This document shows, piece after piece, positions 33,412 through 39,679 of a DNA stretch of 64,000 bases. The stretch spans positions 248,001 to 312,000 of the forward strand of contig CAINED010000013.1 in NCBI GenBank assembly GCA_903847605.1, read 5' to 3'. The notes beneath the pieces are model-generated. The model was not told the DNA's origin, searched no databases, and saw only the letters and a program-made list of their open reading frames with translations. The DNA is from an uncultured Hyphomicrobiales bacterium (GTDB lineage Bacteria; Pseudomonadota; Alphaproteobacteria; Rhizobiales; Beijerinckiaceae). How positions within the stretch are numbered: position 1 is the first letter of the stretch; the number at the start of each line of letters is the position of its first letter. A program made the translations under genes and the position numbers.

Positions 33412-33443
33412 GAAAAGCCCCGCCTTTGCAGGCAGGGCTTTAA
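33412..33443 (-). terminator. Intrinsic terminator of carD
   Basis: On the minus strand AAGCCCTGCC pairs with GGCGGGGCTT around a TGCAAA loop, followed by TTCTCTTT. It starts 26 bases after the carD stop and separates carD from clpB. The rest of the 248-base space before clpB holds no gene I can see. Confidence 0.82.
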
Positions 33444-33468: not shown

Positions 33469-35022
33469 TTATGCCGCTTCGTCCACGACGGCGTCAGCGC
33501 CTTCGTCAGCGCTTTCGCCTTCAACCTTGGCGCCGCGGCGCGGCCCACGCTGCAGATGCTGCTCGATCAGCTTCAGCGATTCCTGCTCCGTCAGCTTCTG
33601 AACCGCGGCAACCTCACGCGCCATCCGGTCGACCGCCGCTTCATAAAGCTGACGCTCGGAATATGACTGCTCTGGCTGGGCGTCCGAACGGTAGAGGTCG
33701 CGAACGACTTCCGCGATCGTGACGAGATCGCCGGAGTTGATCTTGGCCTCGTATTCCTGGGCGCGGCGCGACCACATCGTACGCTTGATGCGAGCGCGGC
33801 CCGTCAGCGTGTCCAACGCCTTCTTCACGGCTTCCGGGCTCGACAATTTGCGAATCGCGCCAGCGAGAACCTTCGGCATCGGCACCTTCAGCGTCATCTT
33901 GTCCTTTACGAAATCGATGACGAACAATTCCAGCTTGAAGCCGGCGACTTCCTGCTCCTCGATCGCGACGATCTGACCAACGCCATGGGCCGGATAGACA
34001 ATGAACTCGCCGGCCTTGAAGCCGGCATGAGGCACACCAGGCTTGGTGACGGGCTTGGCCATCGCCGGCGCTACAGCGGGGCGATAGGGCGGATTGATGC
34101 GCACGCCGTTGGCTCCGATGACAGGGCCCGTCGGCTTGGACGCTGATGCGACGGGGCCTGGTGCTGCGGGAGCAACCTTCGCAGGCTCGACCTTGGCTAC
34201 CACCGGCTTAGCTGCTTCAGCCTTCGCTGGTTCCGACTTGGGCTCAGCCTTCACTGCCACGGGCTTGACGGGCGCAGGCCGAGCATCGTTGGCCGCCTTC
34301 ACCTTTTCAGGCGCTGCCTTCACGACAACAGCCTTCTCTGCCTTGGCAGGCGCAGCCGCGCTCTTGGGCGCCGGCTTGGAGCCAGAGCTGTCGGCGATCA
34401 CCGCAACGACAGCCGGCTTCGCATCAGATTTAACCTTGCCGACAATCGCGGGCTTGGTCTCTTGTGTGGCCTTATTGTTTGTCACGATTGTTTTCTTGCT
34501 CGCTTCCGACTTGTTGCTCTTGAGTCCGGCGCTCGCGCTTTCCGCTGCCTTCCCAACCGGTTTTCCAGCCGTCTTGACGACGGTGGCCGCGGCAGCCGCC
34601 TGCCGCGCGGGTTGAGATGCAGCCGGAGCAGCCTTCGCGGCCCGGACCGGCTTGGTCGCGGCAGATTTTTCTGCCGCTGACTTGGAAGAAACCGCCTTCG
34701 TGGCTATCGCAGCTACCGCCGCTTTAGCCTTCGCCGGCTGTTCTTTCCCGCCCTTTACTGACGTCTTGCTCCCGGACGAGGCTGGCGCCTTCTTTTCGTT
34801 TTTGCTGCCAGCCTTGGAGCCGGCTGCTGCCGGCCTGGAACTTTTCACGGAGGCTGCCGCGCTTTTGGCGGCGGCCTTGACCTTAATTGCAGTCACCTTC
34901 GTCCCGGCCTTTCCGTCCTTCTTGCTCGCTTCCTTGCTCGCTTTGGACTTGGCCCCGCTGTCTTTCTTGCCAACCGCAGAAGACTTTGATGCAATTTTGT
35001 TGCTTTTGTTGGGCGAAGGCAT
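33469..35022 (-). CDS. carD: CarD/CdnL-type transcription regulator with histone-H1-like N-terminal extension
   Basis: A 517-residue protein in which residues 335-490 form a CarD/CdnL domain: FKAGEFIVYPAHGVGQIVAI (RNA polymerase-interacting Tudor-like part), KMTLKVPMPKVLAGAIRKLS, and a helical DNA-contact region with RTMWSRRAQEYEAKINSGDL. The domain stabilises open promoter complexes, particularly at rRNA and growth genes. Before it is an unusual tract of about 320 residues, almost only Lys, Ala, Pro, Ser and Val, resembling histone H1 tails or AlgP/HctB-like proteins. A start at the Met321 codon would give an ordinary 197-residue CarD. However, AAGGAG nine bases upstream of the distal ATG supports the long form. 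Confidence 0.9.
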   Translation of the reverse strand: MPSPNKSNKIASKSSAVGKKDSGAKSKASKEASKKDGKAGTKVTAIKVKAAAKSAAASVKSSRPAAAGSKAGSKNEKKAPASSGSKTSVKGGKEQPAKAKAAVAAIATKAVSSKSAAEKSAATKPVRAAKAAPAASQPARQAAAAATVVKTAGKPVGKAAESASAGLKSNKSEASKKTIVTNNKATQETKPAIVGKVKSDAKPAVVAVIADSSGSKPAPKSAAAPAKAEKAVVVKAAPEKVKAANDARPAPVKPVAVKAEPKSEPAKAEAAKPVVAKVEPAKVAPAAPGPVASASKPTGPVIGANGVRINPPYRPAVAPAMAKPVTKPGVPHAGFKAGEFIVYPAHGVGQIVAIEEQEVAGFKLELFVIDFVKDKMTLKVPMPKVLAGAIRKLSSPEAVKKALDTLTGRARIKRTMWSRRAQEYEAKINSGDLVTIAEVVRDLYRSDAQPEQSYSERQLYEAAVDRMAREVAAVQKLTEQESLKLIEQHLQRGPRRGAKVEGESADEGADAVVDEAA

Positions 35023-35086
35023 ACGCAGTTACTCCTTTTTTTGGCCCCGTGTTGGAAACGGCGCCGCGACTCTCTGATCCGGGTCC

Positions 35087-35163: not shown

Positions 35164-35205
35164 CGCAAAAAAACGGCTCCGGAAATTGCCCGGAGCGGCT
35201 TTCCA
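35164..35205 (-). terminator. Intrinsic terminator downstream of fdxA
   Basis: On the minus strand GCTCCGGG and CCGGAGC form a stem followed by a run of seven T. It is about 215 bases beyond the fdxA stop; between them (35206-35418) I see no gene. The carD promoter region lies on its other side. Confidence 0.75.
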
Positions 35206-35418: not shown

Positions 35419-35757
35419 TCAGTCACCCTCGCCCGGATCGGCCGAAAAATAGGCGTCGAATTTGCCGGGCTTACCGTCGAAGTCCTTGCCATCGGCAGGC
35501 GGCTCACGCTTTACGGTTATGTTTGGCCAAGTTTTTGCCATGTCGGCGTTGAGCTTCAACCATTTCTCCAGACTGGGCTCGGTATCCGGCTTGATGGCTT
35601 CGGCAGGGCATTCCGGCTCGCAAACGCCGCAGTCGATGCATTCGTCAGGATGGATAACCAGCATGTTCTCGCCCTCGTAAAAGCAATCCACGGGGCAAAC
35701 TTCCACGCAATCCATATACTTGCACTTGATGCAATTCTCGACGACGACGTAGGTCAT
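35419..35757 (-). CDS. fdxA: Seven-iron ferredoxin FdxA
   Basis: A 112-residue ferredoxin starting [17 protein letters not shown]; the longer frame adds a non-homologous leader. The first cluster region is [17 protein letters not shown] and the second is [12 protein letters not shown], giving the [3Fe-4S] plus [4Fe-4S] pattern of alphaproteobacterial FdxA. The C-terminal tail of about 40 residues is family-typical. Electron-transfer partner unknown. It is 98 bases downstream of the S4 gene in the same direction. Confidence 0.95.
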
Positions 35758-35855
35758 GCTTGGGCTCCTCGGCGGCGATGCGCCGGAACGATACGTGTGG
35801 CTAGCTAGCGCCATTAAGGAGCCTGCGCAAGATGATCGCTTCACGCAGGCATTGG

Positions 35856-36230
35856 TCAGAACTCTTCGCGAAGCTTCTGTAAATCCCTGCGGTCCTTCTT
35901 GCTGGGCCGTCCTTCCCCGGGATCGAAACCGTCCTGTGTTGTTGGCGCAGGAAAGTCGCGAGGTGGCGTCAGATCTTCGAAAAGCAATCTGGCTTCTTCA
36001 AAGGGCCCGCGCCGTTCGCCTGCTGCGACGACCTTCAGCACTCTGACGTGCCGTTCCAGGGAAATGGTCAGAACATCGCCCGGGGAGACCTGCTTGGAGG
36101 CGGTGTCCTGCCGCAAGCCGTTGATGCGAACATGCCCTTCGGTCACCAGTCTGGCAGCGAGTGTGCGGGTTTTCACGACGCGCGCGAACCATAGCCACTT
36201 GTCGAGACGCTGGCGCTCCGAAGCGCTCAA
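35856..36230 (-). CDS. S4-domain RNA-binding protein (HslR/Hsp15 family)
   Basis: A 124-residue protein with an S4 RNA-binding domain at residues 8-70 ([41 protein letters not shown]) followed by a basic tail rich in Lys and Arg. Related to Hsp15, which recycles 50S subunits carrying nascent chains. The start overlaps the end of the helicase gene by 4 bases, so the two are translationally coupled, suggesting a joint RNA-related role. Confidence 0.9.
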
Positions 36231-39200
36231 GGCTTGCCCTTGCCTTCCAGTTGCGCCTTCAGGGCTGCGAGCTTGGCGAAGGGCGAATCGGGATCGGGCG
36301 CGCGATCGCGCCCGCGAGGCTTATCGCTGCTGGCGAACTGCCGTACTTCCGGCCCTCCCCGTTGATCCTTGCGATCATGCCTGGGCCGGTCGCCGCGCGG
36401 CGCTCCGGAGCGTGAACCTTCGAATTTCGGGCGGTCCGGGCGCGGTGCCCCTTGTGGACGAGCCGTCTGTTCGCCCGCTGGGGCCGATGCCGTGCGCTCG
36501 GGGCGCTTGGGCCTTTCGGGTGCGGGTGGAATGACGAAAACGCGTGGAGTTTTGGGAGCCTCGCCTTCCTTCACCCGATTCGGAGCGCCCTTTTGATGCC
36601 GGCGCGGGCCGCGCTCCCTATTCTGACGCTGACCTCCGTGACGGTGGGGATGCCAGACCTCGATTTCCGGCTGCTCGGCGACCGCCACTGGCGGCTGCTC
36701 TGTATCGCCGGAACCTGTGTCTGCCGGCTCCTCCGCGACAATTGCCGTCGAAAGTTCCAGCGCATCGGCAGCGGGCGCTTCCTGTGCGGGTTCGACGCCG
36801 GCTTCGATTGCCCCTAATTCGTCCTCAACTTCAGCTTCGGCGACCGGCGGATCGGATGGGCCTTCGGCGTCTTCGCTTGATGTCTCTGCGGCGCTCGTAA
36901 CCTCTTCGGCGGCAACCGGTTGAGATGCAGGTTCAGCGTCGTGCAGAACTGCGCCGTCGACCTCCGTCGAGCCGTCAGCGGTATCTTCGGGGTGATCCTG
37001 TGTTTCTGCCTCGGGTGAGAGCTCGGTCGTTGCTTCAGGCGTATCCGCCGCGTCCGGAGCATCCGCTTCCTGCGCCGTTGATTCGCCCTCTCCGGCAGAG
37101 GGGCTGTCCGCAGTGACGGGAGTCTTCGGCATTTCCGGCACAAGCGGCACGGTGATGGCCGGCCCCTTTCGGCTCTCTTTGTTGTAGCCAAGTGACTGCA
37201 AAATCGATGCAAACGCTTCGCCGGAGCAGCCGGCGAGAGACGTCATGTTCACCGTCACGACAAAACCGTCGCCATCGGCGGTTCCCGGCGGCGGCGTGCC
37301 CGGGGTCACCCCTGGACGATAGGCAATCGCCGGACGAATCAGGTCCGCAAGGCGCTCGAGAATATCTACGCGCACCGCACGCTCGCCACTGACGCGAAAA
37401 CCGGCGGCGAGATAAAGCGCCTTGGGCACCGATTTGTCGGCAGCGAATGATGTCCGTCCCGTCGAGGCGAGATGCACGACATCGGCGAGCGCCTGCGAGA
37501 CTTCACCCGGCTCGTTCTTCAACACCCAGAGCTGCGCCGCGAGGGCGCGTGGCGCGGGCTTCAGCAGCAAAGGCAAGTAAATGTGGTAGGCGCCAAAGCG
37601 CATGCCGACCTTGCGAAGCGCCGCGCGCCCAGCCTGATCGAGGGACTTGACGTCCTGCGCGACCTTATTGCGCTCAAGCACGCCCAGGGATTCAGCGACC
37701 TGGAAAGCGATTCCACGCGCTATCCCCTCAAGGCCCTCTCCCTCTTCCAGATCGAAGAGCGGGCCAAGCAACTTCTTGATATGTTGCGCCAGCCATAGAT
37801 CGAGACGGCGCTGAACTGTTTCGAGCGCGGGCCCGGTGAGCTGCTCGTCCGAAAGGACCCGGACAACAGGCTTGAGGATGTGATCGGACGGGTAGATTTT
37901 CCCGACGGCCTCGCCCAGCCAGCGCAAAGTGCCATCGGCGGCAAGAACGAAGGCCGTGTCCACCGCTTCGCCGATGCGCGCCGCGCGCGCCTCGATCTCG
38001 CTCGCCAGCGCCTTCATCGCGGCGGCGTTCAAAGTCTTCTGCGCCTCGCCTTCGGCCTGCGGATCGGGAGTAAAGCGGAAGCCCTGCAACTGGCCGACAT
38101 GCTGGCCCTCGACCATCACATCGCCCGAGGACGTTATTTCGGCTTCCAGCATCGCGTTCTCTCTTAATCGCCGCATCAGGACGCTTGTGCGCCTGTCCAC
38201 AAATCTGTGCGCCAGACGCTCGTGCAGGGCGTCGGACAGGCTGTCCTCTACCTGACGGGTGACGCCCTGCCAATGCTCCGGATCGGCCAGCCAGTCCGGG
38301 CGGTTGGCTATATAGTTGAAAGTCCGCACCTGCGCGAGCCGCGCCGAGAGCGTGTCTATCTCGCCATCGGTCCGGTCGAAGGCAGCGAGCTGCCGTTTGA
38401 ACCAGTCTTCCGGAATCCGGCCCGCCCGCACGATGAAACCGAATAGCGTCAGTACAAGTTCCGAATGCGCGGAAAGCGAAAGCTTGCGGTAGTCCGGCAC
38501 CTGGCAGGCATCCCACAGACGTGAGACGTCGGCCTTTGTTGCAGCCTGTCTGCGCACATCGGGATCGCGAGCCGCGATATCGAGCACCATCACGTCTTCG
38601 GCAAGCGGCGCGCGGGTAAGGCCGGGCTCTGTCGGTTCGCGCTCCAGCGAAACCTGGAGCGACTGAATGTTCGAGAAATCGAGATCGCTGTTGCGCCATT
38701 GCAGCATACTCAGGGCAGAGAAACGATGCTCCTCGACGGCCTCGGCCGTTTCTTCATCGAACGGCAAGCAACGTCCGGTCGTGCCGAATGTGCCATCGCG
38801 AATATGCCGTCCCGCGCGTCCCGCGATCTGTCCAATTTCGGCCGGTGTCAGCAAACGATACTGCCAGCCGTCGAACTTGCGATTTCCCGCAAAAGCGATG
38901 TGATCGACATCGAGATTGAGTCCCATGCCGATAGCGTCTGTCGCGACGATGTAATCGACGTCGCCCTCCTGATACATCGCCACCTGCGCATTGCGCGTGC
39001 GTGGACTAAGCGCGCCAAGCACGACAGCTGCGCCGCCACGCTGGCGGCGTATGAGTTCGGCGATCGCGTAGACTTCCTCCGCAGAGAAGGCGACGACTGC
39101 CGTGCGCGGCGCGAGCCGCGACAATTTGCGCTCGCCGGCGAAAGATAATTTCGAGAGGCGGGGGCGCGTTACGACCGTTACGTCAGGCAAAAGCCTTTCA

Positions 39201-39679
39201 ATCAGAGGCCGCACCGTCGATGCGCCCAGAACCAGAGTTTCTTCCCGGCCGCGACGGTTGAGCAACCTGTCCGTAAAGACGTGGCCGCGATCGAGATCGG
39301 CCGCAAGCTGGATTTCGTCGATGGCAACGAAAGCAACGTCGAGATCCCGCGGCATCGCCTCCACAGTTGCGATCCAATAGGCGGGATTTGGTGGCTTAAT
39401 CTTCTCTTCGCCGGTAATCAGCGCGACCCGCGCGGGCCCGACTTTCTCGACGACCCGATTGTAAACTTCACGCGCGAGAAGCCTCAGCGGCAGCCCGATG
39501 ATCCCGCTGGAATAGGCCAGCATTCGCTCGATGGCGTAATAGGTTTTCCCGGTATTGGTCGGCCCCAGGACGGCGGTTACGCGTCGCGACCGCTCCTGAA
39601 TGCGAAGGCCGCGCGCGGCGGGGAACTGCATGTCCATGGTGGGCGAATTCACCGCTCCGGGAAGCGTTCCCTGTAGCAT
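36227..39679 (-). CDS. Suv3-like DExH RNA helicase with long charged C-terminal tail
   Basis: An 1150-residue protein. Residues 30-330 hold the helicase core with Walker A GPTNTGKT (39-46), Walker B VAIDEIQLA, and the second RecA lobe (DAIGMGLNLDVDHIAF, then GQIAGRAGRH). This is the SUV3-type layout known from mitochondrial RNA degradosomes. A conserved helical body follows to about residue 840. The last 300 residues are low-complexity: first acidic (Glu, Asp, Ala, Pro), then basic and Arg/Gly/Pro-rich (ERGPRRHQKG, RSGAPRGDRPRHDRKDQRGG). ATGs at 39637 and 39631 are alternative starts. The tail is probably disordered and RNA-binding. Confidence 0.93.
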   Translation of the reverse strand: MLQGTLPGAVNSPTMDMQFPAARGLRIQERSRRVTAVLGPTNTGKTYYAIERMLAYSSGIIGLPLRLLAREVYNRVVEKVGPARVALITGEEKIKPPNPAYWIATVEAMPRDLDVAFVAIDEIQLAADLDRGHVFTDRLLNRRGREETLVLGASTVRPLIERLLPDVTVVTRPRLSKLSFAGERKLSRLAPRTAVVAFSAEEVYAIAELIRRQRGGAAVVLGALSPRTRNAQVAMYQEGDVDYIVATDAIGMGLNLDVDHIAFAGNRKFDGWQYRLLTPAEIGQIAGRAGRHIRDGTFGTTGRCLPFDEETAEAVEEHRFSALSMLQWRNSDLDFSNIQSLQVSLEREPTEPGLTRAPLAEDVMVLDIAARDPDVRRQAATKADVSRLWDACQVPDYRKLSLSAHSELVLTLFGFIVRAGRIPEDWFKRQLAAFDRTDGEIDTLSARLAQVRTFNYIANRPDWLADPEHWQGVTRQVEDSLSDALHERLAHRFVDRRTSVLMRRLRENAMLEAEITSSGDVMVEGQHVGQLQGFRFTPDPQAEGEAQKTLNAAAMKALASEIEARAARIGEAVDTAFVLAADGTLRWLGEAVGKIYPSDHILKPVVRVLSDEQLTGPALETVQRRLDLWLAQHIKKLLGPLFDLEEGEGLEGIARGIAFQVAESLGVLERNKVAQDVKSLDQAGRAALRKVGMRFGAYHIYLPLLLKPAPRALAAQLWVLKNEPGEVSQALADVVHLASTGRTSFAADKSVPKALYLAAGFRVSGERAVRVDILERLADLIRPAIAYRPGVTPGTPPPGTADGDGFVVTVNMTSLAGCSGEAFASILQSLGYNKESRKGPAITVPLVPEMPKTPVTADSPSAGEGESTAQEADAPDAADTPEATTELSPEAETQDHPEDTADGSTEVDGAVLHDAEPASQPVAAEEVTSAAETSSEDAEGPSDPPVAEAEVEDELGAIEAGVEPAQEAPAADALELSTAIVAEEPADTGSGDTEQPPVAVAEQPEIEVWHPHRHGGQRQNRERGPRRHQKGAPNRVKEGEAPKTPRVFVIPPAPERPKRPERTASAPAGEQTARPQGAPRPDRPKFEGSRSGAPRGDRPRHDRKDQRGGPEVRQFASSDKPRGRDRAPDPDSPFAKLAALKAQLEGKGKP

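Follow-up and report, generated by a model that had tools for sequence, protein, structure and literature searches.

A CarD/CdnL protein with a long basic N-terminal tail in an uncultured alphaproteobacterium, and the recurrence of such tails across its class

CdnL has been described as a small standalone factor of 160-200 residues that reaches promoters through RNA polymerase (PMC4374960, available part), and the 150-200 residues that an earlier note on this DNA gave as the normal size of CarD/CdnL proteins agree with that figure. The locus described here raises the question of what a member of this family with 517 residues is: whether the additional N-terminal sequence is made as protein, how widely it occurs and what it may do. 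The gene lies in a 64,000-nucleotide stretch of contig CAINED010000013.1 (positions 248,001 to 312,000) from an uncultured Hyphomicrobiales bacterium (GCA_903847605.1), called the window hereafter, to which the following positions refer.

33469..35022, minus strand: carD/cdnL gene, 517 aa, with the ATG at 35022 and the stop at 33469
35032..35037, minus strand: Shine-Dalgarno AAGGAG, 9 nt before the ATG at 35022, with similar motifs and spacing at the distal ATGs of relatives
34030..35022, minus strand: Lys/Ala/Pro-rich N-terminal tail, residues 1-331, with its composition boundary at the ATG; top-scoring segment of the window
33844..34020, minus strand: CarD_TRCF_RID, the RNA-polymerase-interacting domain (RID), residues 335-393 (Pfam PF02559, 4.7e-12)
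33565..33822, minus strand: CarD_C domain, residues 401-486 (Pfam PF21095, 7.7e-24), aligned to solved CarD/CdnL chains
33472..33477, minus strand: C-terminal Ala-Ala, present without exception in 20 aligned proteins and similar to the Caulobacter CdnL degron for ClpXP

The coordinates 33469..35022 given in the earlier note are right, and the strand, which it did not state, is the minus strand, on which the interval is a single open frame; the plus-strand reading has 5 stops. The CarD with a long N-terminal Lys/Ala/Pro extension that it proposed there is borne out by the Pfam domains and the open frame of 517 aa. The RID is followed by CarD_C, both above the curated cut-off, which is the domain order of CarD/CdnL; together the CarD domain region covers residues 335-486, after a tail of about 331 residues for which a Pfam search returned no family match. 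At 517 aa the protein falls outside a narrow definition of standalone CdnL (160-200 residues, no added domain). Within its own genome PF02559 matched only the window gene and one frame of 1261 codons, which we presume to be Mfd; because this is the only other match, the window gene is the sole CdnL found in the genome. The best solved relative is 2LWJ, the Myxococcus CdnL according to the available part of PMC8156234, and the next are CarD chains from other bacteria; by homology to these solved chains, the window CarD is predicted to bind the RNA polymerase beta subunit. The architecture of the tailed CdnL is new, although the family is known; its close mechanistic precedent has the tail at the other terminus.

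Start site and translation of the tail

The sequence evidence for translation of the tail from the distal ATG is strong. The AAGGAG before this ATG had already been taken as a sign of translation, and the argument is strengthened by the composition edge at the ATG, the conservation of the frame and the codon pattern. A composition score was trained on the sequence next to the domain in the other genus loci (window left out), with upstream frames from 60 untailed loci as the contrast; it set the distal edge of the tail composition 331 codons before the domain, exactly at the ATG. Among same-genus loci (window included, those open at a contig end excluded), the edge and the Shine-Dalgarno ATG agreed within 3 codons in 25 of 27, compared with 2.2% for random positions; among the other family loci they did so in 14 of 20. 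They lay more than 3 codons apart in L145 and L149 of the genus and in 6 of the 20 family loci. In congeners, GGAG or AGGAG is found mostly 8-10 nt before ATGs located 187 to 463 codons upstream of the domain. Untailed loci have their Shine-Dalgarno start at most 16 codons from the domain in 139 of 182 cases, and therefore the start moved with the tail.

Of 51 same-genus genomes searched, 47 gave a match, and 46 of these have a stop-to-stop frame of at least 329 aa, the frame of the remaining one (G371) being cut by a contig end. Codon changes in the tail fall mostly at third positions (for instance 18/14/102 for L150/L151). Finding the tract out of frame or non-coding in relatives had been named as one observation that would speak against the reading; in the relatives examined the result was the opposite as regards frame, start and dN/dS. 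A non-coding or shifted tract is excluded by frame conservation, codon pattern and start position.

Some irregularities were seen along the way. One of the 46 congeners with the long frame has a TAG inside its CarD match (G359:C186:18907-19485), which is a sequencing error or marks a pseudogene. In Bradyrhizobium-group CarD the true start may lie upstream of the first good ATG: Lys/Ala-rich coding-like composition extends 54-97 codons upstream of an MPNKTAK-type ATG in L048, L014, L047 and L110, with a GTG near the edge, and only 1 codon upstream of it in L084. A run F[RH]AQAVSQKTRKK is conserved 118-132 codons before the domain in 19 loci. In the untailed L095 and L077 the in-frame peptide upstream of the Shine-Dalgarno start resembles this run (FHAIAVAGKTRHK in L095, FHALAV in L077), and is perhaps an older upstream start or a leader.

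Composition and selection

The 331-residue tail contains Ala 26%, Lys 18%, Pro 10%, Arg 2%, Asp+Glu 5% and Phe/Trp/Tyr/Cys 0.3%, with a net charge of +0.14 per residue. It is H1-like in being Lys/Ala/Pro-rich, net basic and poor in aromatic residues; its Lys content is, however, lower than that of H1, being under half of what we take to be the content of eukaryotic H1 tails, and its make-up is closer to AlgP/PhaF than to a eukaryotic H1 tail. Disorder of the tail is assumed from composition alone, and from the AlgP/H1-like composition together with the Myxococcus precedent we infer that it would bind DNA. Capture of an H1 gene was rejected, since the histone H1-like HC2 model (PF07382) has no match in the tail and none in its own genome, where the tail matched only itself (150 of 313 candidates scored, in a weak, low-complexity search).

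When the 960-nt tail DNA was shuffled 5000 times by mononucleotide, the frame stayed open once. Among the window frames of at least 100 codons the tail is the best segment for its composition, at 174 bits. The runner-up, at 50 bits, is an acidic Pro/Ala-rich low-complexity stretch (36656-37162, minus strand) in the C-terminal part of a 1150-aa helicase-like ORF (36227-39679).

When the tails of the genus were fixed by the Shine-Dalgarno ATG alone, with no composition filter, 28/28 were net positive (at least 0.101 per residue, median +0.149) and all 28 had more Lys than Arg. The 101 distinct score-defined tails are likewise all net positive, 99 of them at +0.08 or more, with Lys above Arg in 100, a charge count that is partly circular because the score rewards Lys and penalises Arg; Phe/Trp/Tyr/Cys reach at most 1.4%. 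L040 and L043, which are Methylovirgula CarDs, have Arg-rich, basic tails with 12-14% Arg that follow a Shine-Dalgarno ATG and that the Lys-weighted score did not pick up; L260 and L052 have tails with more Arg than Lys, and the L261 tail is nearly neutral (+0.005). The CarD of G467 (L269) differs from those with Lys/Ala/Pro tails: its N-terminal tail of 199 residues is rich in Lys, Arg and Ser and contains repeated SRSRS motifs. Because of these Arg-rich, Arg-dominated, nearly neutral and Lys/Arg/Ser tails, "basic" applies more widely than "Lys-rich". The Arg-rich tails, the circularity and the order families beyond those covered leave the odds of the readings discussed below unchanged, because the filter-free count agrees.

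Two CarDs from AT-rich genomes (L271 and L279, locus GC 0.26 and 0.32) carry Lys-rich N-terminal tails with about 36% Lys and little or no Ala, that of L279 being borderline by score. Near-regular AKKPAAKKP repeats make up the tails of L277, L270, L264 and some others.

Tail dN/dS was 0.10-0.44 in 24 of the 25 genus pairs listed, dS being saturated in the other, and domain dN/dS was 0.01-0.07; the pairs share a domain identity of 85% or more, only pairs listed are counted, they are non-independent, and 28 of 30 genus loci had a callable start. The least saturated pair (L168/L170) gave 0.32, L150/L151 gave 0.10, and the window gave 0.26 against L143 and 0.41 against L144. These values call for caution, since dS is in many cases close to saturation and alignments of low-complexity sequence are prone to error. 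Sequence and length of the tail drift fast, the length ranging from 187 to 463 codons by composition across the genus loci (cut loci excluded), and because of this drift, and of a tail dN/dS that exceeds the domain value by a factor ranging from several to tens, the constraint may cover little beyond composition. The sequences show purifying selection on the tail, its basic composition being kept while sequence and length change.

Distribution and neighbourhood of tailed CarDs

The tail is common to the genus and recurs across the class, neither of which was part of the earlier note; the recurrence is the surprising part. By composition, 29 of 30 loci fetched from the genus are tailed, the other (L152) being cut by a contig end. 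Tailed and untailed states are both present among the genera of the GTDB family, and in the order tailed members occur in 7 of the 27 families examined (f1, f2, f16, f19, f23, f26 and f36), out of 52 sampled. Tailed records include Bradyrhizobium, Rhodopseudomonas, Tardiphaga, Nitrobacter and Methylocystis; Methylobacterium, Microvirga, Xanthobacter and Ancylobacter records are untailed.

Most relatives in the class have no tail. The class sample excludes the own genome and G042; of its 121 genomes with CarD, 16, belonging to 15 of 118 families, carry a tail that reaches 60 residues and 40 bits. Each of the 41 genomes among these 121 with a frame of at least 225 aa was examined individually; shorter frames were scored untailed because they leave no room for a 60-residue tail, and some of them (e.g. 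G454, 91 aa) may be contig-cut yet counted as untailed. Seven borderline genomes (G509, G409, G433, G480, G464, G428 and G467) are uncounted. In the same class search GreA, another polymerase factor, had no N-terminal tail among the 132 genomes with a best match listed, G042 and the own genome among them (137 of 142 matched; the 35 loci examined take in each of the 8 listed frames of at least 218 aa), which sets CarD tails in 16/121 against GreA tails in 0/137 (Fisher p = 3e-6). A like extension at the C-terminus was absent from all 273 distinct CarDs, a set that is no prevalence sample, as best matches came first and long frames were deliberately included.

On a CarD-domain tree of 121 representatives the tail state changes at least 21 times, and 20, 13 and 5 times after collapsing branches under 80, 90 and 95; with shuffled labels the mean was 24.5 changes at 80 and 14.6 at 90, so that tail presence tracks the tree hardly better than shuffled labels do. 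On account of these counts the number of origins is uncertain and gain is indistinguishable from loss. The trait looks labile.

The surroundings of the gene include the following features.

35419..35844, minus strand: upstream fdxA-like (presumed) ferredoxin ORF, conserved neighbour, listed from a GTG
35176..35196, minus strand: terminator-like hairpin with a T run between fdxA and carD
33414..33441, minus strand: intrinsic-terminator-like hairpin after carD

The 7 hairpin sites of this kind in the window, compared with 4.4 expected by shuffling, are weak alone, and a scan for sigma-70-type promoters at the locus gave no match, which says little. We take the upstream ORF to be fdxA-like from its cysteine pattern, and the ORF downstream of carD, from its sequence, to be ClpB-like. 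Among loci with an upstream flank of 1 kb or more (52 with shorter flanks were set aside), a same-strand upstream ferredoxin motif accompanies the gene in 68 of 69 tailed and in 154 of 178 untailed cases, which places the tailed CarD at the locus of the untailed CdnL. A moved gene or a paralogue is unlikely, the ferredoxin neighbourhood being the same as that of untailed CdnLs.

The two groups also share their C-terminus: of the distinct CarDs, 94 of 101 with a tail and 158 of 172 without one end in AA. In Caulobacter CdnL the C-terminal Ala-Ala is a ClpXP degron that clears the protein in starvation (PMC11034885, available part), and AA or VA ends are reported for over 80% of alphaproteobacterial CdnLs (PMC5324124, available part). 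The tail may be placed N-terminally because this degron must stay free.

Possible roles of the tail

The reading that we hold to be probable, if well short of secure, is that of one 517-residue CdnL/CarD which does the usual job of its domain and carries the basic N-terminal tail as a non-specific nucleic-acid tether on an RNA-polymerase factor. The RID would sit on the RNA polymerase beta subunit and CarD_C at the upstream edge of the bubble, which would stabilise open complexes, at rRNA promoters first; the 331-residue basic tail, taken as disordered, would hold CarD and the polymerase near promoter DNA by charge, and this tether would raise initiation or residence at the promoter. The effect on initiation is what we infer by analogy, in that the tail would work like the H1-exchangeable tail of Myxococcus CarD, from the opposite end of the protein.

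Myxococcus xanthus CarD is alike in joining a CarD-type RNA-polymerase domain to a long basic disordered tail, disorder being presumed at the window. It differs in that its tail is C-terminal and HMGA-like, with an acidic stretch and AT-hooks, whereas the window tail is N-terminal and the RGRP AT-hook motif is absent from the window protein. It also differs in being a second, dispensable paralogue beside CdnL that works with CarG, whereas the window gene is its genome's only CdnL, with only itself and the presumed Mfd frame matching PF02559. As far as the available parts of the papers go, H1 can replace the Myxococcus CarD tail (PMC8156234, PMC4374960), the tail is needed for full activity, the tail-less CdnL showed no DNA binding, and genome data suggest that the HMGA domain is limited to CarD-containing myxobacteria (PMC4374960).

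Caulobacter crescentus CdnL belongs to the same class and shares the C-terminal Ala-Ala with the window protein; unlike the latter, it has no tail described in the available parts of PMC5324124 and PMC11034885, from whose main text the word "extension" is absent, and section 4 of PMC5324124, as available, notes that conservation and coverage relative to Caulobacter CdnL are high and says nothing of an extension. No description of long basic tails on alphaproteobacterial CdnL was found in the literature searched, subscription papers being mostly outside its reach. AlgP and PhaF of Pseudomonas are bacterial proteins with a Lys/Pro/Ala-rich disordered H1-like tail, and peptides with KPAA repeats bind DNA (PMC9239181, available part); the two proteins differ in that the tail is C-terminal, its repeats are more regular and no RNA-polymerase factor is attached. 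Mycobacterial sigma A, an initiation factor unrelated to CarD, has a long disordered region at its N-terminus that is partly required for function (PMC10011835, available part).

A translated, basic tail might instead have a target other than promoter DNA, namely RNA, polyphosphate or other polyanions, and place CarD and the polymerase in condensates or granules or in a starvation response. AlgP, with a similar tail, sits on polyphosphate granules, whose spacing requires the tail (PMC9239181, available part), and the starvation clearance of Caulobacter CdnL operates through the Ala-Ala that the window protein shares (PMC11034885, available part). The partner domain is, however, a promoter factor already at DNA, and the nearest precedent, Myxococcus CarD, acts through DNA in the descriptions available, which leads us to regard such a target as doubtful.

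Less likely again is a tail that arose as a low-complexity expansion and is tolerated, being translated but close to neutral, with its Lys/Ala/Pro make-up due to repeat slippage and weak anti-aggregation selection. The fast change of length and sequence would fit this, as would the tail dN/dS of 0.10-0.44 next to 0.01-0.07 for the domain (pairs listed), the untailed state of most class relatives, a tail presence that hardly follows the CarD tree better than shuffled labels, and the few tails that are nearly neutral in charge or Arg-rich. Neutral expansion accords poorly, however, with 28/28 filter-free genus tails being net positive with Lys above Arg, with retention of the tail in 46 of 47 matching congeners, with 273 CarDs that lack a like C-terminal extension, and with GreA proteins of the class sample that, among the matches listed, have no N-terminal tail.

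The possible internal starts are two.

34060..34062, minus strand: Met321, proposed alternative start, with no Shine-Dalgarno; of the congeners listed, L143 and L144 alone have an ATG at this distance
34102..34104, minus strand: GTG (Val307), weak possible internal start, with GGAG 8 nt upstream; absent from the nearest relatives L143 and L144

That a normal-sized CarD is made beside the long form from one of them is very improbable: GTG307 has its GGAG and Met321 recurs in L143 and L144, but Met321 is poorly conserved and lacks a Shine-Dalgarno, any ATG at all stands within 25 codons upstream of the domain in just 8 of 29 same-genus tailed loci (window included), and a start codon with a Shine-Dalgarno-like motif there in 2 of 29, one of them the window GTG307. 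The earlier proposal of a basic tail on an RNA-polymerase factor stands as regards a translated tail of AlgP/H1-like make-up, and is unsupported as regards two isoforms through Met321 (34062).

Beyond the single protein, a broader proposal is attractive but tentative, and we would sooner expect it to need revision than to hold: that the housekeeping CdnL of alphaproteobacteria has repeatedly gained and lost H1-like tails, which would make it a nucleoid-binding factor coupling bulk DNA or polyanion binding to rRNA promoter opening, a convergent use of linker-histone chemistry in the basal transcription machinery. If whole lineages, Bradyrhizobium, Rhodopseudomonas and Methylocystis records included, run tailed CdnL, findings from Caulobacter or mycobacteria may not transfer to them, and natural tail swaps between close relatives would make the role of basic disordered tails in initiation testable.
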